64,000 nucleotides of DNA, from assembly GCF_001895025.1 (NCBI RefSeq), contig NZ_BCXI01000015.1, positions 1 to 64,000 of the forward strand, in the 5' to 3' direction. The position numbers and the translations under genes are program-made. Under the pieces are notes generated by a model, which saw only the letters and a list, made by a program, of their open reading frames with translations, had not been told where the DNA came from and did no database searches. This document shows positions 43,811 to 53,873 of this stretch, piece by piece. The stretch comes from Rhodococcus zopfii NBRC 100606 = JCM 9919. GTDB taxonomy: Bacteria; Actinomycetota; Actinomycetes; Mycobacteriales; Mycobacteriaceae. The number at the start of each line of letters is the position of its first letter. Position 1 is the first letter of the stretch.

Positions 43811-43849
43811 TTGCCCGGCGAGTAACATAGAGATGTTACCGACGAGTAA
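43811..43849. promoter_or_regulatory. fadE5 operator region with TTACYCnnGRGTAA-type sites
   Basis: TTACCGACGAGTAA (43836-43849) matches the 14-bp pattern TTACYCnnGRGTAA found between fadA2 and fabG4 and before tetR, with one mismatch. A variant with a longer spacer, TTGCCCGGCGAGTAA, is at 43811-43825. The palindrome GTAACATagagATGTTAC (43822-43839) overlaps both. This lies 57-96 bp before the fadE5 ATG, where a repressor would block transcription. Confidence 0.75.
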
Positions 43850-43906
43850 TAAGCTTGGGCGGTACTTGACATCACAGCTCGACCGCACCGCACTGGGAGA
43901 CACAGA

Positions 43907-45742
43907 ATGGGCCACTACAAGAGCAACCTCCGTGACCTCGAGTTCAATCTCTTCGAGGTCCTGAAGATCCAAACGCTCCTCGAGGCCGGCAAGTTCGGCG
44001 ATCTCGACGAGGACACCGCTCGGGGCATCCTGGCAGAGGTCAAGGCCCTCGCCGAGGGTCCGGCCGCCGAAGCCTTCGCCGACACCGACCGCAATCCCCC
44101 TGTGTTCGACCCCGAGACCCACTCGGTCTCCCTTCCGGAAGGCTTCAAGAAGGCGTTCCGCGCCTGGTGGGATGCCGGCTACTGGTCGATGGGCATCCCG
44201 GAGGCGATCGGCGGCACCGAAGCCCCGCGCTCGCTGCTGTGGGCCACCAACGAATTGATGCTGGGCGCGCAGCCGGCGGCCTTCATGTACGCCGCGGGCC
44301 CCGCCTTCGCCGGTGTCCTCTACGAGAACGGCACCGAGGAGCAGAAGCAGTGGGCGGCCACCTGCGTCGAGCGCGGCTGGGGCTCCACCATGGTCCTGAC
44401 CGAGCCCGACGCGGGCTCCGACGTCGGCGCCGGCCGCACCAAGGCGGTCCGGCAGGACGACGGCTCCTGGCACATCGAGGGCGTCAAGCGGTTCATCACC
44501 TCCGCCGACTCCGACGACCTGTTCGAGAACATCTTCCACCTGGTCCTGGCCCGTCCCGAGGGCGGCAAGCCGGGCACCAAGGGCCTGTCGCTGTTCTTCG
44601 TCCCGAAGTTCCACTTCGACTTCGAGAAGAACGAGCTCGGCGAGCGCAACGGCGTGTTCGTCACCAATGTCGAGCACAAGATGGGCCTCAAGGCCTCCGC
44701 GACCTGTGAGGTCACCTTCGGCGGCCACGGTGTCCCCGCCAAGGGCTGGCTCGTCGGCGAGATCCACGACGGCATCGCGCAGATGTTCGACGTCATCGAG
44801 CACGCCCGCATGATGGTCGGCACCAAGGCCATCTCCACGCTGTCCACCGGCTACCTCAACGCCCTCGACTACGCCAAGGAACGCGTGCAGGGCTCCGACA
44901 TCACGCAGATGGCGGACAAGACCGCACCGCGCGTGACGATCACCCACCACCCGGACGTCCGCCGCTCGCTGGCGATGCAGAAGGCATACGCCGAGGGCCT
45001 GCGCGCCGTGTACCTGTACACCGCCGCTCACCAGGACATCGTTGTCGCCGAGCAGGTTTCCGGTGCCGACGCGGACCTCGCGCACCGCATCAACGATCTG
45101 CTGCTGCCGATCGTCAAGGGCTGCGGCTCGGAGCGCGCCTACCAGTACCTGACGGATTCGTTGCAGACGCTCGGTGGCTCGGGCTTCCTGCAGGACTACC
45201 CGATCGAGCAGTACATCCGGGACTCGAAGATCGACTCGCTGTACGAGGGCACCACCGCCATCCAGGCGCAGGACTTCTTCTTCCGCAAGATCGCCCGTGA
45301 CCGCGGCGTCGCCCTGGCGCACGTCGCCGGCCAGATCAAGCAGTTCCTCGACTCGGATTCGGCCGACGAGCGCCTCAAGTCCGAGCGCGCCCTGCTGGCC
45401 ACCGCGCTCGAGGACGTGCAGGCCATGACCGCGACCCTCACCGGTTTCCTCATGGGCGCTCAGGAGCAGCCGAAGGAGCTCTACAAGGTCGGCCTCGGCT
45501 CGGTGCGTTACCTGCTCGCGTTCGGCGACCTGCTCATCGGCTGGCTGCTGCTGCAGCACGCCGAGATCGCCCTCGCCGCACTGGATGCCGGCGCGGACGC
45601 CAAGGATGTTCCGTTCTACGCGGGCAAGGTCGGGATCGCGTCGTTCTTCGCCAAGAACGTGCTGCCCGAGCTGACCGCTTCGCGCGGCATCATCGCCAAT
45701 GTCGACACCGACATCATGGAGCTCGACGAAGCGGCGTTCTGA
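43907..45742 (+). CDS. fadE5: Acyl-CoA dehydrogenase FadE5
   Basis: A 611-residue acyl-CoA dehydrogenase, the exact length I recall for M. tuberculosis FadE5. It oxidises acyl-CoA to trans-2-enoyl-CoA with [19 protein letters not shown] and [13 protein letters not shown] are the FAD/substrate regions. The catalytic Glu is 447 in [14 protein letters not shown]-terminal extension ([20 protein letters not shown]) is typical of this broad-specificity subgroup. GGGAGACACAGA precedes the ATG. It belongs with htdX, fabG4 and fadA2 by function, gene order and shared operators. A strong terminator follows at 45783-45821. Confidence 0.93.
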
Positions 45743-45782
45743 TCGAGCCGCCCGGGGCCGACAGGCCCCGGCAGGGTTGACA

Positions 45783-45821
45783 GGCAGTGACCCCCATCGG
45801 ATTCCGGTGGGGGTCACTGCC
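45783..45821 (+). terminator. Hairpin terminator after fadE5
   Basis: A perfect 14-bp stem (45783-45796 with 45808-45821) on an 11-nt loop lies 40 bp after the fadE5 stop. Its 3' arm runs into a tandem repeat array (45815-45896). There is no T run, common in high-GC actinobacteria. Confidence 0.8.
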
Positions 45822-45896
45822 GTTCGGACGCACTGCCGTTCGGACGCACTGCCGTTCGGACGCACTGCCGTTCAGGGACACGGCCGTTCAGGGACA
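45815..45896. repeat. 16-bp tandem repeats and a 14-bp derivative
   Basis: CACTGCCGTTCGGACG is repeated exactly three times (45815-45830, 45831-45846, 45847-45862) with a partial fourth copy. GCCGTTCAGGGACA follows twice (45867-45880 and 45883-45896). The array extends into the last codons of the alcohol dehydrogenase relic and probably grew by slippage from the terminator arm. Confidence 0.85.
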
Positions 45897-46320
45897 GAAT
45901 GCTCGGTGTCGGAGACGACGACCCCACGCAGGTTTCGGCCCTCGTGCATGTCGGCGAAGCCTTGCGCGATGTCCTCGAGCTTGTAGGTGGTGATCAACTC
46001 GTCGAGCTTCAGCTTCCCCGACGTGTACAGGTCGATCATCCACGGGATGTCGGCCGTCGGCGTGGACGCGCCGAAAAGCGAACCCTGAAGCCGTTTCTGG
46101 TAGAGCACCAGTTCCATCGGGCTGATCGGTATTCCGACGTCGGTCATCTTGCCGAGCCCGGTGACCACGCAGGTTCCGGCCTTGCGGATCGCCGAGAACG
46201 CCTCCGCGATGTGCTCGCCGGTCGTGGCGCTCACGGTCACGATCGCAGCGTCGGCGCCCTGTCCGTTGGTACGAACGCGCGATCCTCGGTGGCCTCCGCC
46301 ATGTCCGCGACCGCGTTACT
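45872..46320 (-). pseudogene. Zinc alcohol dehydrogenase (NDMA-dependent type) C-terminal relic
   Basis: The minus-strand frame reads RTNGQGADAAIVTVSATTGE, then RKAGTCVVTGLGKMTDVGIP and LKLDELITTYKLEDIAQGFA, ending at 45872. This is the C-terminal third of an NDMA-dependent Zn-type alcohol dehydrogenase. A neighbouring frame supplies AVADMAEATEDRAF just upstream, so there is a frameshift near 46275. Everything N-terminal, including the zinc ligands and start, is missing. The break lies at the stop of the VanW gene (46316-46318), which suggests the VanW block replaced it. Confidence 0.78.
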
Positions 46321-49273
46321 CGCCGACGGCCGATGCGTCGGGCACGGCCGGCTCGTCCGTGGCGGATTCGGGTTCCGGGGCGCGGCTCGTCGTCGGCTGC
46401 GCACCGGGTTGCGGCCGGGCGCTCGGCGTCGGCGACGAACCGGATTCCGGTGTGCTTCCCGGCGAACCGGCGGGGTTCCGTTCCGGACCCGGCGCGGGCT
46501 CACGTTCGGACTCGGGCTCGATGCACTCGACGATCGGAACCGGGTCGTACTTGACGGTGCGGGTCGTGCGCGAAAGCTGCGCCCCGGTTTTGGCGTCCGT
46601 GATCACCCGGGTGTCGCTGACCGTGAAACCCTGTGCGCCGCTGGACGGAATGCACGAATCTCCCGCCGGAAGGGTGATCTTGTTCGGCGAAGTGAATGCC
46701 GTTCGGTCCCCGGTGAACGACTGCACGTCCACCGTCTTCGTCCCCCAGATCCGGACCGTGATGTCCGAGCTCGTGCCGATGGTCTGGATCAGCACACCCG
46801 TGTCGAAGGGGTTGCGGAACTGCAGGTCGATCGCGCCCTCGTACACGGTGGCCTCGCGTGCCGCCGGGTACCGCGAGATGTAGTAGCTGTGCTCGGTGTG
46901 GGCGACGTCCTCCATGCCGGCGAAATACGTTGCGTTGTAGAGGGTTGTCGCGAGCTGGCTGATGCCGCCACCGACGGCCGTGCCGGGCCGCCCGGCCTCG
47001 ATGATGCCGGATTCGACGTAGCCCTGGGCGGCACCGCGCGGACCGGTATATCCGTTGAGCGAGAACGTGTCTCCGGGCTTGACGAGGGCACCGTCGATCT
47101 CGGAGGCGGCGAGCCGGATGTTCACACCCGACGCGTAGGTGAACCCGCCGGTGGTGTACTCACCGATGACCTCGCGGATGCCCAGTTTCTCGGCGGCCTC
47201 GGTCGTGAGCGCGGGTTCCACCGGTGCGTACACCGCGGGCGTCGTCCGGTCGCCCGGCGCAGCCAGCAGCCGGGGCAGCGGCTCGAGGGTCTTCGCCCAG
47301 TCGACCAGCTCGCCCTTCACCGCGGGCACGACCGTCGGGCCGCTCCCCTCGATGACGATGCGCGCGTCCTTCGGTTCCACCTCGGTCTCCGCGAGCTGCG
47401 GACGCAGGAAGTCGATGACGGCTTCCGAGTGGTATTCGGGATTCAGGCCGCCGTCGCCGTCCGGCACGAAGGACAAGATCGTGCCGATCCGGTCGCGGGG
47501 CAGGGTTGCGACGGTGTTGTCGCGCCCCTGGACCTTCACGTCCGACTCGACCGCGGGGAACGCGATGTCGGTGAGTGCGCGATCGACCGCTTCGGGGGTG
47601 ACGGTCACCTCGATCGTCTCCACCGGGAGCGTGACGTCGCCGAATGCCCACCGCTCGGCGAACACGTCCGCGGCGACCTGCGGGTCGAGGTCCTGACCGG
47701 GTTGGGGGGACACCGCGACCGGGGTCGCACCCTCGAAGACGACGGTGCCTTCACGCGGGGCGCGTTCGGCGCTCGACCGCACGCCTTCGAGCGCGCTGGT
47801 CAGTGCCGCGTCGTCGCGGAGCGAGGCGACACCGATCTCGTCGCTGCCGAACAGGGACGCCAGCCGGGTGAAGGGGTTGAGCGGCTGCGATCCGATGCGG
47901 TCGAGGGTGTGTTCCCAATCGACCGCGAGACCGGCCTGCGACGGAACGACCTCGCCGGTGGTGTCGCCGGCGGTCACCTCGACGGGACGTCCGAGGCGGT
48001 CGCCGAGTTCGTCGCGCAGCAGCGTTTCGGCTTCGGTGACCGACTTACCGCCGATCTCGATTCCCGCGACGGTCACGCCGCGCGGAACGTTGCCCGACGT
48101 GACCGCAAGATCGACGCCGTAGAGGACCGCGAGTGCCGCGGCGACACCGCCGGCCGCGAGCGCGATCTTCCGCCACGGCGGACCCGCGGGTGAGGGCGAC
48201 CCCGCGGCATCCCCCGGCGGTGTCGTGGGCGGTTCGGAGGGCGGAGGCGGGACCGAGCCGGCGGCGACGGCCGGAACGACCTCGGTCACCGCGTCGTCAG
48301 CGGATCCGGCCGCAGCGAGATCGCCCGCCGATCGCTCTGTCGGCGGAACCGACGGGGGCTCGGCCGCGGACTCGGCCCGGGGCGGGGTGGACGGTGCACT
48401 CCTGACCGCGGACATGTCGATCGCGACGGTCGGGGCCGAGTCGTCGACAGCGGTGGGCGCCGCCGCGGCGGGTTCCGGCTGCGCGGCCGCTGATTCGGCA
48501 GGGGATTCGGCCGGCGTCGGGTCTTCGGCCCACGGATCGTCCCCGGCGAGGTCCGCCGCGTCCACCGGGGCAGGAGCCGAGGGCTCGGCGGCGGGTTCGA
48601 CATGCGGTTCGGTGACGACCGGCTCGGTGACGACAGGTGCGGTGACGACCGGCTCGGTGAAGGCGGGCTTGGTGAACGCGAACGGCGCTGGTTTCTGCGG
48701 CGCAGCCGGGATACCGGTGGTCGGGACCTCCCACGGACGGAGCTGCGCAGTCGTCGGCTCGGCAGCAGGTTCGGGAGTCGGCGCGGCATCCTGCCCGGGG
48801 GCCGCTTCCCGGTCGGCGGGTGCCTCCGGGACTGCGGGTGCCTCCGGGACTGCGGGAGCCTCCGGGACTGCGGGAGCCTCCGGTGCCAGGCTCTGCGGTT
48901 CCGGTTCCGGTTCCGGTTCCGGTTCCGGTTCCGGTTCCGGTTCCGGTTCCGGTTCCGGTTCCGGTTCCGGTTCGGGCGTCGCATCGGCGGCCGTCAGGGC
49001 GTCGTGCGCATCGGCGTTCCCCGCTGCGGGCGGTTCGTCCGCGGGTGCGGCTGTCGGTGTGGTCGGGAGCGGCGCCATCGAGACGAACCGTTCGGTGGCA
49101 GCCGGGCCGGCCGGCTCGGCAACGACGTCCGGTTTCGCGTCGGCGACTGTTCCCGCAGTGTCGTCCACTGCGGTGTCCCCGGCCGTCTCCGGCTTCTGCT
49201 GCGTCTCCGGCTCGTTGGGGGGAACGGCGCCGCTCATGTTCTCGCGCTCGTCCGCCCCGTTGTTACCACTCAC
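46316..49273 (-). CDS. VanW family membrane protein with Pro/Glu-rich tail and PG-binding-like repeats
   Basis: A 985-residue protein. Residues 1-360 are low-complexity Ala/Pro/Glu, including a PE-repeat block encoded at 48901-48972 and APAVPE repeats. One membrane segment is near 365-390 (IALAAGGVAAALAVLYGVDL). The periplasmic part has repeated PG_binding_4-like modules (VPRGVTVAGIEIGGKSVTEA). A C-terminal VanW domain follows (ESGIIEAGRPGTAVGGGISQ, LATTLYNATYFAGMEDVAHT) and then an acidic Pro-rich tail. VanW proteins are linked to cell-wall remodelling and glycopeptide resistance loci, but their activity is not established. GGAGGGA precedes the GTG at 49273. It interrupts fadA2 and fadE5. 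Confidence 0.83.
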   Translation of the reverse strand: MSGNNGADERENMSGAVPPNEPETQQKPETAGDTAVDDTAGTVADAKPDVVAEPAGPAATERFVSMAPLPTTPTAAPADEPPAAGNADAHDALTAADATPEPEPEPEPEPEPEPEPEPEPEPEPEPQSLAPEAPAVPEAPAVPEAPAVPEAPADREAAPGQDAAPTPEPAAEPTTAQLRPWEVPTTGIPAAPQKPAPFAFTKPAFTEPVVTAPVVTEPVVTEPHVEPAAEPSAPAPVDAADLAGDDPWAEDPTPAESPAESAAAQPEPAAAAPTAVDDSAPTVAIDMSAVRSAPSTPPRAESAAEPPSVPPTERSAGDLAAAGSADDAVTEVVPAVAAGSVPPPPSEPPTTPPGDAAGSPSPAGPPWRKIALAAGGVAAALAVLYGVDLAVTSGNVPRGVTVAGIEIGGKSVTEAETLLRDELGDRLGRPVEVTAGDTTGEVVPSQAGLAVDWEHTLDRIGSQPLNPFTRLASLFGSDEIGVASLRDDAALTSALEGVRSSAERAPREGTVVFEGATPVAVSPQPGQDLDPQVAADVFAERWAFGDVTLPVETIEVTVTPEAVDRALTDIAFPAVESDVKVQGRDNTVATLPRDRIGTILSFVPDGDGGLNPEYHSEAVIDFLRPQLAETEVEPKDARIVIEGSGPTVVPAVKGELVDWAKTLEPLPRLLAAPGDRTTPAVYAPVEPALTTEAAEKLGIREVIGEYTTGGFTYASGVNIRLAASEIDGALVKPGDTFSLNGYTGPRGAAQGYVESGIIEAGRPGTAVGGGISQLATTLYNATYFAGMEDVAHTEHSYYISRYPAAREATVYEGAIDLQFRNPFDTGVLIQTIGTSSDITVRIWGTKTVDVQSFTGDRTAFTSPNKITLPAGDSCIPSSGAQGFTVSDTRVITDAKTGAQLSRTTRTVKYDPVPIVECIEPESEREPAPGPERNPAGSPGSTPESGSSPTPSARPQPGAQPTTSRAPEPESATDEPAVPDASAVGE
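48901..48972 (+). repeat. Twelve perfect CCGGTT hexanucleotide repeats in the VanW coding sequence
   Basis: CCGGTT is repeated 12 times without error (72 bp) inside the VanW gene, encoding alternating Pro and Glu (on the minus strand). Each gain or loss of one unit changes the protein by two residues and keeps the frame. Such tracts are prone to slippage, so the length is probably polymorphic among strains. The adjacent APAVPE codons form a second, less perfect repeat. Confidence 0.95.
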
Positions 49274-49386
49274 CCGTGTCCCTCCGACTGGGCACCCCCG
49301 AGCGGGTGCGCCTCGTCATCCAGCCTAAATGCCGGCCCGCGCCGACTCCGATTCGAGCCGGTCCTCAACGACCCGGAAACGAGAAT

Positions 49387-49433
49387 GACCCCGCGTTGCC
49401 ACCAGGTCGGGGGTCAGGCAGCAATGCGGGGTC
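49387..49433 (-). terminator. Hairpin between vanW and fadA2
   Basis: GACCCCGCGTTGC (49387-49399) pairs with GCAATGCGGGGTC (49421-49433) through 12 Watson-Crick pairs and one G-T pair around a 21-nt loop. It lies between the fadA2 stop (49502) and the VanW start, both read leftward, and is the probable fadA2 terminator. Confidence 0.6.
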
Positions 49434-49501
49434 GCTAGGTCTATCGACCCGCTCCCACGGGTGTTACAGACCTTCCGGAATTTTTTTGGTGCGGTTCCGT
49501 C

Positions 49502-50824
49502 TCACGCCTCGAGGATCGCGGTGACGCCCTGCCCACCGGCCGCGCAGATGGAGATCAGACCGCGTGCGGGCTTGCCGGTCTCCGCCTTCTTCTCGTGCAG
49601 CATCTTGGCGAGCGAGGCGACGATCCGGCCCCCGGTCGCGGCGAACGGATGCCCCGCCGCCAAGGACGATCCGTTGACGTTGAGCTTGCTGCGGTCGATC
49701 GAGCCGAGCGGCGCGTCGAGTCCGAGCCGGCCCTTGCAGTACTCGTCCGACTCGAAGGCCTGCAGCGTCGCGAGCACGACGGACGCGAACGCCTCGTGGA
49801 TCTCGTAGAAATCGAAGTCTTGCAGGGTCAGGCCGTTGCGCTTCAGCAGACGCGGAATCGCGTAGGTCGGGGCCATCAGCAGGCCGTCGCCGCCGTGCAC
49901 GTAGTCGACCGCGGCGGTCTCGGAATCCACGAGGTACGCGAGGACGGGCAGGTTACGGGCAGCGGCCCATTCCTCGGTGGACAGCAACGCCGCGGACGCG
50001 CCGTCGGTCAGCGGTGTGGAGTTGCCGGCCGTCATGGTGGCGTCGCCGAGCTTCGTGCCGAACACCGGCTTCAGCGTCGAGAGCTTCTCGACCGACGAGT
50101 CGGGGCGCAGGTTGTCGTCGCGGGTGAGGCCGAGGAACGGGGTGACGAGGTCGTCGAAGAACCCGCGGTCGTAGGCGGCGGCCATGTTGCGGTGGCTCGC
50201 GGCGGCCAGTTCGTCCTGGTCGGCGCGGGCGATCCCGAATTCCTTGGCGGTGATCGCGGCGTGATCACCCATCGACAGTCCGGTGCGGGGTTCGCCGTTG
50301 CGGGGGATCTCGATGCCCAGCATCGACGGGCGCACGTTGCCGAGCAGCTTGATGCGGTCACCGGTGGAACGCGCCCGGTTCAGTGACAGCAGGAATTCGC
50401 GCAGGTCGTTGTTGACGCCGATGGGCGCGTCGGACGTGGTGTCGACGCCGCCGCCGATGCCCGACTCGATCCGGCCGGCGGCAATGGCGTCGCCGACGGA
50501 GATGATCGACTGCAGGCCTGTGCCGCAGGCCTGCTGCAGGTCCCATGCGGGCGTGTGAGGGTTCAGGGGGCTGCCGAGCACGGATTCGCGGATCAGGTTG
50601 AAGTCGCGGCTGTGCTTGAGGACCGCGCCGCCGACGACGGCGCCGAGCTGTTCGCCCTGCAGGTTGAACCGGCTGATCAGGCCGTCGAGGGTAGCGGTGA
50701 ACATGTCCTGGTTCGAGGCGCGAGCGTACTTGCGGTCGGACCGGGCGAACGGGATGCGGTTGCCGCCGAGGATCGCGACGCGGCGCGACGAGCGCGCAGA
50801 GCTGGAACGGGCTTTGGTGGTCAC
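49502..50824 (-). CDS. fadA2: Acetyl-CoA acetyltransferase / thiolase FadA2
   Basis: This 440-residue thiolase matches the length I recall for M. tuberculosis FadA2. It cleaves 3-ketoacyl-CoA. Nucleophile Cys100 is in [10 protein letters not shown], His in [10 protein letters not shown] and [12 protein letters not shown], and the second Cys in [10 protein letters not shown] near the end. It is divergent from fabG4-htdX. The 14-bp operator TTACTCACGGGTAA (50872-50885) lies 47 bp upstream of its start, in the shared promoter. With FadE5, HtdX and FabG4 it completes a beta-oxidation or elongation-reversal set. Confidence 0.92.
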
Positions 50825-50871
50825 GTGTCGTCTCCCGATGTGCTGGTGGATGCGAACTCTGGCTACTATTC

Positions 50872-50885
50872 TTACTCACGGGTAA
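50872..50885. promoter_or_regulatory. Operator between fadA2 and fabG4
   Basis: TTACTCACGGGTAA is an exact match to TTACYCnnGRGTAA, the pattern also found before tetR (53854-53867) and, with one mismatch, before fadE5. It is in the 107-bp divergent gap, so one bound dimer could repress both fadA2 and fabG4-htdX. Confidence 0.8.
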
Positions 50886-50931
50886 GTTGTTGTCGACACC
50901 GCATGACGTCCGAACCAGAGAAGGTGGAATC

Positions 50932-52278
50932 GTGGCCGAAACCAAGGGTGCACCCAAGCTCTATGCCCAATTCATCACGTCCGCACCCGGAGCTTTCCTC
51001 GCCAAGCAGTTCGGGTTGCCCCAGCCGGAGAAGCTCCGCCGCTACCAGCCGGGCGAGCCGGCCCTCGCCGGCCCGGTGCTGCTCGGGGGCAACGGCCGGC
51101 TCGTCGAGCCGATCCGCGCCCTGCTCACCGACTACGTCTTCGCCGAGCCCGACGAGAAGAACTTCGGCGCCCTCGTGTTCGATGCGACCGGCATCACCGA
51201 GCCTTCCGGACTCGAGCAGCTGTTCACGTTCTTCCAGCCGGCCGTGAAGGGTCTCGGCCCGAGCGGCCGCGTCGTCGTCCTCGGCACCACGCCGGAGGAA
51301 ACGTCGTCGGTCGACGAGCGCATCGCCCAGCGCGCCCTCGAAGGCTTCACCCGCAGCCTCGGCAAGGAACTGCGCCGCGGCGCGACCGTGCAGCTCGTAT
51401 ACGTCTCGCCGAAGGCGCCCGCCGGACTCTCCGGTGCCGAATCGACCCTGCGTTTCCTGCTCTCGGCCAAGTCCGCGTTCGTCGACGGCCAGGTCGTGCG
51501 GATCGGCGACGGCGAGGCCACCGCGCCCGAGTCCTGGGACAAGCCGCTCGCCGGGAAGGTCGCCGTCGTGACCGGCGCGGCCCGCGGCATCGGCGCGACC
51601 ATCGCCGAGGTCCTCGCCCGTGACGGCGCGACCGTGGTCGCCGCGGACGTCCCGGCGGCGGGCGAGGCGCTGTCGCAGACCGCCAATCAGGTCGGCGGCA
51701 CGTCCCTCGCGCTCGACGTCACCGCCGCCGACGCCGGCGACAAGCTTGCCGCGCACCTGCTCGAGCGTCACGGCGGCGCCGACATCATCGTGCACAACGC
51801 CGGCATCACCCGCGACAAGCTGCTGGCCAACATGGACGCGGCCCGCTGGAACTCGGTGATGGCCGTCAACCTCATCGCTCCGCAGAAGATCACCGACGTG
51901 CTCGTCGAGAAGGGCGCCCTCAAGGAGGGCGGCCGCGTGATCGACGTGTCGTCGATCGCCGGAATCGCCGGCAACCGCGGCCAGACCAACTACGGCGCAT
52001 CCAAGGCCGGTGTCATCGGTCTCGTGCAATCGACCGCGCCGGTGCTGGCCGAGAAGAACATCACCGTCAACGCCGTCGCGCCCGGCTTCATCGAGACCGC
52101 GATGACCGCCGCGATCCCGCTCGCCACCCGCGAAGGCGGCCGTCTGATGAGCTCGCTGCAGCAGGGCGGCGAGACCGTCGACGTCGCCGAGACCGTCGCG
52201 TGGTTCGCGAACCCGGCGTCGGGCGCCGTCACCGGCCAGGTCGTGCGCGTGTGCGGCCAGTCCATGCTGGGGGCGTAG
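50932..52278 (+). CDS. fabG4: FabG4-type 3-oxoacyl-CoA/ACP reductase
   Basis: A 448-residue high-molecular-weight FabG. Residues 1-205 form an N-terminal flavodoxin-like domain without a cofactor motif ([19 protein letters not shown]). Residues 206-448 are an NADH-type SDR with [11 protein letters not shown] near 216, HNAG, Ser in IDVSSIAG and YGASKAG near 370. FabG4 reduces or oxidises 3-oxoacyl/3-hydroxyacyl thioesters. The GTG at 50932 has AGAAGGTGG upstream; the longer ATG frame at 50887 begins inside the operator region. The htdX start follows the stop without a gap, so the two are coupled. Confidence 0.9.
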
Positions 52279-53136
52279 ATGGCCGTCATCGAACTCGACT
52301 CGGTGCCGTCGATCCTCGACGTCTACTCGCGCGCCGTGCTCTCCGCGTTGCCGGTCGTCGGCGCGTCCGGCACGTCCCTGCCCGACGACACGCTGCTGCT
52401 GCGGGGCGTGCGGGTCGATCAGGACAACCTCGCCGAGTACGCGAAGGTCTGCGGGCTGCGTTTCGGCGACACCCTGCCGATCACCTACCCGTTCACGCTC
52501 ACGTTCCCCGTCGTGATGAAACTGATGGTGTCCAAAGGATTTCCGTTCGCGGCCATGGGGTCGGTGCACGCGGAGAACGTGATCGAACACCGCCGCCCGA
52601 TCTCCGCCGGCGAGCCCCTGGACATCCGCGTGCACGCGGCCGATCTGCGAGAGCACCGCAAGGGCCTGCTCGTGGACGTCGTCACCGAGATCTCCGTGGG
52701 CCGTGAACCGGTCTGGCACCAGAGATCGACGTTCCTGCACCAGCAGCGCACGTCGTTGTCCGGTACCCCGAAGCCGGAACCGGAGCCGGAGCACATCCCG
52801 GCCGTGCCGACGTCGACCCTGCGGGTGGATCAGAAGACGATCGACCGGTACGCGGCGGTCTCCGGCGACCGCAATCCGATCCACGTTTCGAGGCTGGGCG
52901 CCAAGGCCTTCGGTTTCCCGCGCACCATCGCGCACGGCATGTGGAGCGCCGCAGCGGCGCTGCGTGCCGTCGAGGGCCGCATCCCGGAGAAGGTCACGTA
53001 CGCGGTGCGGTTCGGGAAGCCGGTGCTGTTGCCGGCCACGGTGAACCTGTACGCGCAGCACGTCGCGGACGGCTGGGACCTGTCCCTGCGGCATCCGACC
53101 GAGCAGTACCCGCACCTGAGCGCCACCTTGCGCTGA
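52279..53136 (+). CDS. htdX: HtdX-type (R)-hydratase / MaoC dehydratase
   Basis: This 285-residue double-hotdog MaoC-type dehydratase hydrates trans-2-enoyl-CoA to (R)-3-hydroxyacyl-CoA. The hydratase-2 motif is in the second half: YAAVSGDRNPIHVSRLGAKA, then FGFPRTIAHGMWSAAA, with Asp and His near 194-199. The first half is the degenerate hotdog (LRFGDTLPITYPFTLTFPVV). Length matches the mycobacterial HtdX (about 280). The ATG directly follows the fabG4 TAG. It is convergent with the TetR gene at 53215. Confidence 0.9.
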   Translation: MAVIELDSVPSILDVYSRAVLSALPVVGASGTSLPDDTLLLRGVRVDQDNLAEYAKVCGLRFGDTLPITYPFTLTFPVVMKLMVSKGFPFAAMGSVHAENVIEHRRPISAGEPLDIRVHAADLREHRKGLLVDVVTEISVGREPVWHQRSTFLHQQRTSLSGTPKPEPEPEHIPAVPTSTLRVDQKTIDRYAAVSGDRNPIHVSRLGAKAFGFPRTIAHGMWSAAAALRAVEGRIPEKVTYAVRFGKPVLLPATVNLYAQHVADGWDLSLRHPTEQYPHLSATLR

Positions 53137-53214
53137 GGCCGGGTACGGCACACCGACTTCGGGCGGACCGGGGCGCGATGGGGGCGTCCCGGTTCGCCCG
53201 ATCCGTTGCCGGGG

Positions 53215-53823
53215 TCAGCAGGACGGATCGCTGCGCTTGCGACCGGCCAGGCCGCGCCACGCGAGGTTTTCCAGCAGATCGGCAGCCTTGACAACGTCGA
53301 TCTCCCCGCCGGCGATGCGGTCGGCGACCGCCTCACCCGCACCGACCAGCGCGACCGCCATGATGTTGAAATCCATGTCCGGTTCGGGCTCGCGCGTGCT
53401 CGATTCGAGCAGGTGCGCGGTCAGTTCGATCAGCCGGTCGCGGCTGCCGCGCACCTGGCTCGCGAAGGCCTGCTGGGCGAGCGCCTGACGGTAGAGCACC
53501 ATCCACGAGTGGCGATGCTCGTCGACGAACCCGAGAAACGACTCGAGCGCGACCCGCAGTTGCGCACGCGGCGGCAGGGTGGGGTCGCCCGCCGGAGCCA
53601 GGGCCTCGACGAACCGCTGGCCCTCGCGGCCGATGCACGCGGCGAACAGTTCGTCCTTCGAGCCGTAGTACAGGTACAGCATCGGCTTGGAGATCGACGC
53701 GCGCGCGGCGATCGCATCCATCGAGGTTTCGTGGAACCCGTTCTCGGAGAACACCTCCACGGCGGCATCGAGCATCTGCTGTTCCCGCACCGCGCGAGGC
53801 AGTCGCTTGGTACCGCCGGCCAT
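53215..53823 (-). CDS. TetR family regulator, candidate repressor of fadE5, fadA2 and fabG4-htdX
   Basis: A 202-residue TetR protein. The DNA-binding domain includes REQQMLDAAVEVFSENGFHE and SMDAIAARASISKPMLYLYY. The C-terminal domain has ESFLGFVDEHRHSWMVLYRQ. It lies where Rv0238 lies in M. tuberculosis, next to lpqI and the htdX block. Its promoter carries TTACCCTAGAGTAA inside a longer perfect 10-bp-arm palindrome (53851-53870 region), and the same core appears at the fadA2/fabG4 and fadE5 promoters. I infer it autoregulates and represses all of them, probably with an acyl-CoA as inducer. Confidence 0.86.
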   Translation of the reverse strand: MAGGTKRLPRAVREQQMLDAAVEVFSENGFHETSMDAIAARASISKPMLYLYYGSKDELFAACIGREGQRFVEALAPAGDPTLPPRAQLRVALESFLGFVDEHRHSWMVLYRQALAQQAFASQVRGSRDRLIELTAHLLESSTREPEPDMDFNIMAVALVGAGEAVADRIAGGEIDVVKAADLLENLAWRGLAGRKRSDPSC

Positions 53824-53847
53824 GTCTCCTCCATACTGCTCGGGTAA

Positions 53848-53873
53848 CGCTCCTTACCCTAGAGTAAGGAGCG
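53848..53873. promoter_or_regulatory. tetR autoregulatory operator
   Basis: CGCTCCTTAC and GTAAGGAGCG are perfect 10-bp arms around CCTAGA; the core TTACCCTAGAGTAA is at 53854-53867. The centre CTAG is palindromic. The site lies 30 bp upstream of the tetR start codon. A half-site GGGTAA is at 53842-53847. Confidence 0.82.

Follow-up and report, generated by a model that had tools for sequence, protein, structure and literature searches.

The 64-kb window analyzed here (i.e., the whole stretch from position 1 to 64,000 of contig NZ_BCXI01000015.1 of Rhodococcus zopfii) carries four genes for acyl coenzyme A (acyl-CoA) enzymes and one for a TetR family regulator, and copies of one short palindrome lie at their promoters. 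The fadE5-like acyl-CoA dehydrogenase gene (positions 43907 to 45742, plus strand; 611 amino acids [aa]) encodes Pfam acyl-CoA dehydrogenase domains, and its product shares approximately 69 to 73% identity with that of the mycobacterial gene located close to the corresponding cluster, in loci in which that gene is whole. A fadA2-like thiolase gene (49502 to 50824, minus strand; 440 aa; NF006740, 769.5 bits against a cutoff of 539), the product of which carries the QACGT, GHP, and CAAGGQ motifs, diverges from a fabG4-like 3-oxoacyl reductase gene (50932 to 52278, plus strand; 448 aa; NF006110, 680 bits against a cutoff of 410). For the latter we chose the GTG start codon at 50932; the mechanically called open reading frame starts with TTG at 50887. 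The reductase contains GAARGIG and S..YGASK, which we take to be catalytic residues of the short-chain dehydrogenases/reductases (SDRs), and the adjoining htdX-like MaoC hydratase (52279 to 53136, plus strand; 285 aa; PF01575) contains YAAVSGDRNPIH, presumably the hydratase-2 motif. The tetR gene (53215 to 53823, minus strand; 202 aa; PF00440 [TetR_N] and PF21943 [TetR_C_46]) is convergent with htdX, which ends at 53136.

The preliminary description of this DNA reported the motif TTACYCnnGRGTAA (TTACYCNNGRGTAA) as exact in the fadA2/fabG4 gap and upstream of tetR, and as present with one mismatch upstream of fadE5. A pattern scan confirmed all three sites (50872 to 50885, 53854 to 53867, and 43836 to 43849, respectively). 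At up to two mismatches, the window held four matches to TTACYCNNGRGTAA (0.92 expected), and 2 of 100 shuffled sequences also gave four; taken alone, these counts are suggestive but not decisive. The palindrome is real, but the original pattern was too narrow, as positions 6 and 9 can be C or G. The refined pattern TTACYSnnSRGTAA (TTACYSNNSRGTAA), picked after the relatives had been inspected, fits all three sites exactly and has no further match in the window when one mismatch is allowed (0.21 expected; no shuffled sequence reached three).

The main fadE5 site (TTACCGACGAGTAA; 43836 to 43849; the sites are palindromic and were given no strand) lies 57 bases upstream of fadE5. The site in the divergent gap (TTACTCACGGGTAA; 50872 to 50885) is 47 bases from the fadA2 start and 46 bases from the fabG4 start. 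The tetR site (TTACCCTAGAGTAA; 53854 to 53867) precedes tetR by 30 bases and sits at the center of a 24-bp palindrome (GCTCCTTACCCTAGAGTAAGGAGC; 53849 to 53872). This palindrome, the 9-base arms of which are perfect, is perfect save its two central steps and is a probable autoregulatory operator. A longer-spaced variant described at 43811 was also found (TTGCCCGGCGAGTAA). When read as a 14-mer, this variant begins at 43812 and forms a degenerate upstream operator (TGCCCGGCGAGTAA; 43812 to 43825; two mismatches to TTACYSNNSRGTAA; locus L282) that precedes the main fadE5 site by 24 bp, and a degenerate copy is also retained in a genome of the same genus (L283). Judged by itself, this element is weak.

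Across the R. zopfii genome, the original pattern had 18 sites (7 exact and 11 with one mismatch) versus 2 for the reversed control. The three window sites could have been picked by eye, and some shuffles equaled the window count at up to two mismatches, as chance or structural elements would allow. Against this, the refined pattern had 11 sites in this genome versus 0 for the reversed control, and the palindromes are kept at homologous promoters across genera (see below). We therefore discarded a chance origin on the basis of the genome-wide controls and the conservation, and consider it exceedingly improbable that the palindromes are anything other than operators.

The refined operator occupies ten loci of this genome, including fadE5, fadA2/fabG4-htdX, and tetR; the regulon of four enzymes that had been proposed is thus too small. 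At the etfB locus, the top matches were electron-transfer flavoprotein beta models and structures, with every NCBIfam score below its cutoff. The etfD locus, identified by a 936.5-bit match to 9ojn (the EtfD structure of Mycobacterium smegmatis), has two sites 25 bp apart. A further locus is a pair of acyl-CoA dehydrogenase genes, which we take to be fadE24-fadE23, and at an enoyl-CoA hydratase gene the operator overlaps the start codon (TTACTCTCGAGTAATG; L016:3001-3016, corresponding to C6:11844 of this genome). The remaining loci are a thiolase gene, an SDR gene, and a DUF4442 gene that is oriented divergently to nadD. In all, seven loci carry genes for acyl-CoA enzymes or for the step by which electrons leave beta-oxidation; the other three are tetR, the DUF4442 gene, and the SDR gene. 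The DUF4442 site recurs twice among 75 listed family sites; neither the SDR nor the thiolase site recurs among these 75, which come from searches not aimed at the two genes. The sites fall into two subtypes (e.g., TTACTCCAGAGTAA and TTACTGGTGGGTAA), and many of those at etfB and etfD are of the second kind. One-mismatch sites also occur at a pyruvate carboxylase gene and a second enoyl-CoA hydratase gene (C11:57468 and C32:33876). Those with one mismatch to the original pattern near selO, a histidine kinase-like gene, and an endonuclease gene were treated as probable chance matches, as were the ones at a lysS-like frame and a ribosomal protein region (both assigned by eye) and at C37:46272 (no clear gene nearby).

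The proposal of a common operator depends on its conservation at the same promoters in other genera. We compared the best 80 of 572 loci from an aligned-regulator scan, all titled Mycobacterium or close kin (two of them, L104 and L105, from one metagenome-assembled genome; M. tuberculosis itself lies outside the set). All 80 hold tetR by selection, and these tetR relatives are 59.7 to 66.6% identical to the R. zopfii protein. The genes nagZ, tetR, htdX, fabG4, fadA2, and fadE5 recur in most of these loci where the sequence extends to them. In M. peregrinum, M. senegalense, M. septicum, M. houstonense, and some others (L075, L077 to L081, L084 to L088, and L092), the distance between tetR and htdX is at least approximately 5 kb, or the sequence does not reach htdX.

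The conservation was found at both enzyme promoters. The fadA2/fabG4 gap contains an exact operator in 67/67 measurable loci, and the fadE5 promoter contains TTACTGGTGGGTAA, an exact match to the refined motif, in 43/43; 13 and 37 of the 80 loci, respectively, are outside these counts, as the genes or starts were not covered or were too distant. A second site (up to two mismatches) precedes the main one by 23 to 26 bp in 41 of the 43 fadE5 promoters, the same tandem arrangement as that of the longer-spaced variant in R. zopfii. In the mycobacterial regions, no match with two or fewer mismatches was obtained for the reversed and permuted control motifs, and shuffled sequences gave one at two mismatches once per set.

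Searches of the family Mycobacteriaceae covered 41 genomes of 31 genera, and for each target the 30 best loci were tested, the R. zopfii genome included (i.e., the best 30 of 41, 37, 32, 48, and 63 matches). At up to one mismatch, the refined motif was present upstream of fadE5 in 30/30 loci and of etfD in 23/30, and the original motif was present upstream of fadE24 in 26/30 (one miss, L199, is short at the upstream end) and of etfB in 21/30. Upstream of tetR, the core TTAC-N6-GTAA was found at up to one mismatch in all six further family loci that were inspected (L140 to L145).

Relatives of tetR with 43 to 53% identity occur in four other families (f5, f12, f14, and f15) of an order-level set of 150 genomes. 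Among 14 hand-chosen loci outside the family, 12 have relatives of fadA2, fabG4, and htdX within 10 kb of tetR. The TTAC-N6-GTAA core (up to one mismatch) lies upstream of tetR in 9/14 and upstream of fabG4 in 8/12, compared with approximately 3% for shuffled sequences. On this comparative evidence, the unit of tetR, fadA2-fabG4-htdX, and the operator seems to predate the Mycobacteriaceae. Tandem core sites occur in 6 of the 14 loci (L146, L149, L150, L151, L152, and L155), upstream of tetR or fabG4; their spacing is 16 bp, versus 24 to 26 bp within the family.

The solved chains nearest to the R. zopfii TetR protein by sequence are 3f1b and then FasR. Its predicted structure (mean pLDDT [predicted local distance difference test], 85.7; pTM [predicted template modeling score], 0.76) matched the fold of 3f1b from Rhodococcus sp. 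RHA1 (79% identity), followed by FasR and FadR-type regulators. The title of the 3f1b entry (released in 2008) names a TetR-like regulator and gives no ligand, operator, or target. This chain is very probably the ortholog of the R. zopfii protein in a relative, and a solved but functionally unnamed structure thereby gains a probable role. Membership in the two characterized groups was rejected, since the protein scored 91.6 bits against the NCBIfam equivalog cutoff of 330 for FasR and 41.2 bits against the cutoff of 200 for Bacillus FadR.

FadR (YsiA) of Bacillus subtilis is a structural neighbor (3whb; 16 to 17% identity in the fold match). It is a TetR-type repressor of fatty acid degradation that is released by long-chain acyl-CoA and has etfBA in its regulon, and its operator differs from TTACYSnnSRGTAA. 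FasR (Rv3208) is the characterized TetR protein nearest to the R. zopfii regulator by both sequence and fold. According to one report, FasR is a long-chain acyl-CoA sensor that comes off DNA once the long acyl-CoA fills its tunnel, and it differs in being an activator of fas-acpS (PMC7382501).

Judged by gene position and sequence, the R. zopfii tetR is the positional counterpart of Rv0238/FdmR and hence an FdmR-type relative of a known system. The preliminary description had named Rv0238 as the M. tuberculosis counterpart, which the gene position supports, and had postulated a dedicated acyl-CoA-responsive regulator while leaving open whether it had been described. It has: one paper, citing Dong et al. 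(2021), equates Rv0238 with FdmR and describes it as a repressor of fatty acid degradation and modification genes that responds to long-chain acyl-CoA (PMC12403877), another calls FdmR a key regulator of fadE5 (PMC9262360), and a 2015 survey places Rv0238 among five TetR regulators common to all of the mycobacteria analyzed, M. leprae included (PMC4482099). In the mycobacterial loci, tetR lies beside nagZ and htdX-fabG4-fadA2 with fadE5 nearby, and a conserved palindrome stands at fadE5 and other beta-oxidation promoters of the family. The likeness to FdmR thus comprises the position beside nagZ, htdX, and fabG4, the identity to the mycobacterial relatives, the fadE5 target, and fatty acid degradation, whereas the R. 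zopfii gene itself lies outside the mycobacterial loci compared. The literature matches listed, which are excerpts and do not include the original FdmR paper, contain no FdmR operator, no link of FdmR to etfB or etfD, and no reach into other families. An FdmR of Mycobacterium marinum was reportedly the subject of Dong et al. (2021, PNAS). The present analysis, which leaves the content of Dong et al. aside, yielded the operator, the sites at etfB, etfD, and fadE24-fadE23, the tandem spacing, and the extension to four further families. The central idea of the preliminary description is right but already known in outline, and the predicted target set is wider than the four enzymes proposed earlier.

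A tetR ortholog (E value of at most 1e-30) is present in 34 of the 41 family genomes. These 34 genomes contain 256 refined sites versus 16 control sites, while the 7 genomes without the ortholog at this threshold contain 15 versus 8 (Mann-Whitney P of approximately 1e-4 for site numbers with versus without the ortholog, kinship being ignored). Among the latter, G151 and G178 have no site at all, and site numbers in G153 and G180 do not exceed those of the control. Of the 256 sites, the examined part comprised 68 listed ones from 12 ortholog-bearing genomes, and 46 of these 68 lie at most 350 bp upstream of a gene on our target list of 13 proteins; one of them (L392) was assigned to tetR from its coordinates, since the examined stretch ended there. 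The corresponding values are 0/4 for G153 and G180 and 2/3 for G161, which is 66% complete.

We consider it likely that the R. zopfii regulator is an FdmR-type repressor that acts through these 14-bp palindromes, is released by long-chain acyl-CoA, and governs a beta-oxidation regulon of many loci. The ligand-free dimer would bind TTACYSnnSRGTAA, either singly or in tandem approximately 24 to 26 bp apart, at fadE5, the divergent fadA2/fabG4-htdX promoters, its own promoter, etfB, etfD, the fadE24-fadE23-like pair, and a few other targets. Occupancy near a promoter would mean repression, which in this genus would include autoregulation. A long-chain acyl-CoA in the effector domain would then free the repressor from DNA, a step assumed by analogy with FasR; we infer the binding, the repression, and the ligand, and the one line of support for release by acyl-CoA is the fold neighborhood (i.e., FasR and FadR). 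Release should jointly derepress the acyl-CoA dehydrogenases, the branch of the R-specific hydratase, 3-hydroxyacyl dehydrogenase, and thiolase, and the electron-transfer flavoprotein with its membrane oxidoreductase. One round of beta-oxidation would then run via an R-3-hydroxyacyl intermediate: FadE5 would form the enoyl-CoA, HtdX would hydrate it, FabG4 would oxidize the product, and FadA2 would cleave it, with EtfBA-EtfD accepting the electrons of the cycle. This order of steps is inferred, and the oxidative direction of HtdX and FabG4 in the cell is deduced from the operator that their genes have in common with fadE5, fadA2, etfB, and etfD. In a knockout study, fabG4 and htdX are filed under mycolic acid biosynthesis and modification (PMC10501769). 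The target list would link these two enzymes, often treated as biosynthetic, with fatty acid breakdown, and the operator sequence is directly testable.

Several observations weigh against this interpretation. The refined pattern was fixed after sites had been seen, and the Mann-Whitney test disregards kinship. In the fadE24 set, two matches at one mismatch were obtained with the reversed control, and in the other four sets there was none. Further fold neighbors of the regulator are TetR proteins with other ligands (i.e., DarR, HapR, and KstR2). At the mycobacterial tetR promoter, a site (original motif) was found in only 18/80 loci at up to one mismatch and in 30/80 at up to two. The enoyl-CoA hydratase operator is present at up to one mismatch in just 7/30 family loci (original motif); these per-target counts suggest that the core targets are fadE5, fadE24, etfB, and etfD and that the enoyl-CoA hydratase gene is a local one. 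No gene of the target list stands at 22 of the 68 listed sites in ortholog-bearing genomes. Iron reportedly acts via IdeR on etfD and not on etfBA (PMC8593149). In the M. tuberculosis rv0158 knockout, fadE23 and fadE24 were upregulated while fabG4 and htdX were downregulated (PMC10501769); these opposite shifts indicate that the two gene sets can be uncoupled, which argues against tight co-control.

The same opposite shifts, together with the two subtypes of site and the frequency of the second kind at etfB and etfD, would suit a regulator that acts on its linked genes alone (fadA2, fabG4-htdX, tetR, and perhaps fadE5), the sites at the etf genes, fadE24, and elsewhere being targets of another regulator that recognizes a similar motif. 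The string TTACTGGTGGGTAA found at all 43 mycobacterial fadE5 promoters is, however, identical to the R. zopfii etfB site, and the genomes G151, G178, G153, and G180, which lack the ortholog, have either no site or control levels. A strictly local regulon of four enzymes is disfavored because the same strings occur at etfB and at mycobacterial fadE5, and we regard an action on the linked genes alone as improbable.

A further point against the FdmR-type repressor as the sole reader of the operator comes from two genomes of one genus, G155 (99% complete) and G182 (95% complete), in which no tetR ortholog was found, the best hits being 27 to 28% identical. These genomes nevertheless retain four sites each versus none for the control; exact operators precede fadE5 in both genomes and, in G182, also etfB. 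Sole ownership is doubtful because sites are kept where the ortholog is absent; in this genus, another protein may read the operator, or the operator may be a relic. The best TetR hits of both genomes carry a FasR-like DNA-binding segment (SKPVLYQHFPSKLELYL) that is nearly that of the FasR chain, and the FasR-like gene of G155 has a one-mismatch site upstream (L371:5768). These features, and the position of FasR as the nearest characterized relative of the R. zopfii protein, would fit an operator that is also or mainly read by another acyl-CoA-sensing TetR protein, most plausibly FasR, with the two competing and thereby coupling synthesis with breakdown. On the other side, no site at up to one mismatch precedes the FasR-like gene of G182. 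Among such genes in the remainder of the family, 0/11 have a site of this quality within 400 bp upstream (at two mismatches, 2/11). In other families, moreover, the motif core accompanies the linked tetR and fadA2-fabG4-htdX. We judge a role of this kind for FasR to be unlikely.

A broader version of the FdmR-type scheme may be entertained as a rather doubtful possibility. One acyl-CoA-released repressor would run, as a unit, a whole beta-oxidation module older than the Mycobacteriaceae, which would comprise the dehydrogenases, the R-specific pair HtdX-FabG4 (usually assigned to synthesis), the thiolase, and EtfBA-EtfD as the outlet for electrons. In the genus that lost the repressor, another TetR protein (e.g., FasR) would have taken over the kept operators, joining synthesis and breakdown under a single sensor. 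The genomes G155 and G182, with the operator kept and the ortholog lost, offer a natural case for how regulons change hands. The positions concerned are L370:5362, L372:3841, L188, and L371:5768. The operator-bearing fadE5 consists of two tandem paralogs, and the FasR-like gene lies approximately 16 to 22 kb away.

Among the 22 sites without a listed target, the neighbors of seven were assigned with Pfam as a picked subset. They encode a malate synthase (L438), biotin carboxylases (L394 and L443), a 4HBT thioesterase (L426), an Oxidored_FMN/Pyr_redox protein (L396), a glycerol-3-phosphate-oxidase-like protein (L444), and an aldehyde dehydrogenase (L395). Several members of this picked subset would fit lipid metabolism. 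In L395 and L399 (from G152 and G179, of one genus), the site stands right before the same 521-aa frame, which is the aldehyde dehydrogenase according to Pfam in L395, where a MerR-like frame (by eye) adjoins it.

At the mycobacterial tetR promoter, the homology-assigned start codon overlaps the site in 14 of the 30 loci with up to two mismatches (e.g., L067 to L069 and L083), an arrangement comparable to that of the enoyl-CoA hydratase gene of R. zopfii. In the 12 loci mentioned above in which tetR is distant from htdX or htdX lies beyond the sequence (L075, L077 to L081, L084 to L088, and L092; M. peregrinum and others), the tetR promoter site is gone (four to five mismatches), and this decay suggests that autoregulation has been lost there.

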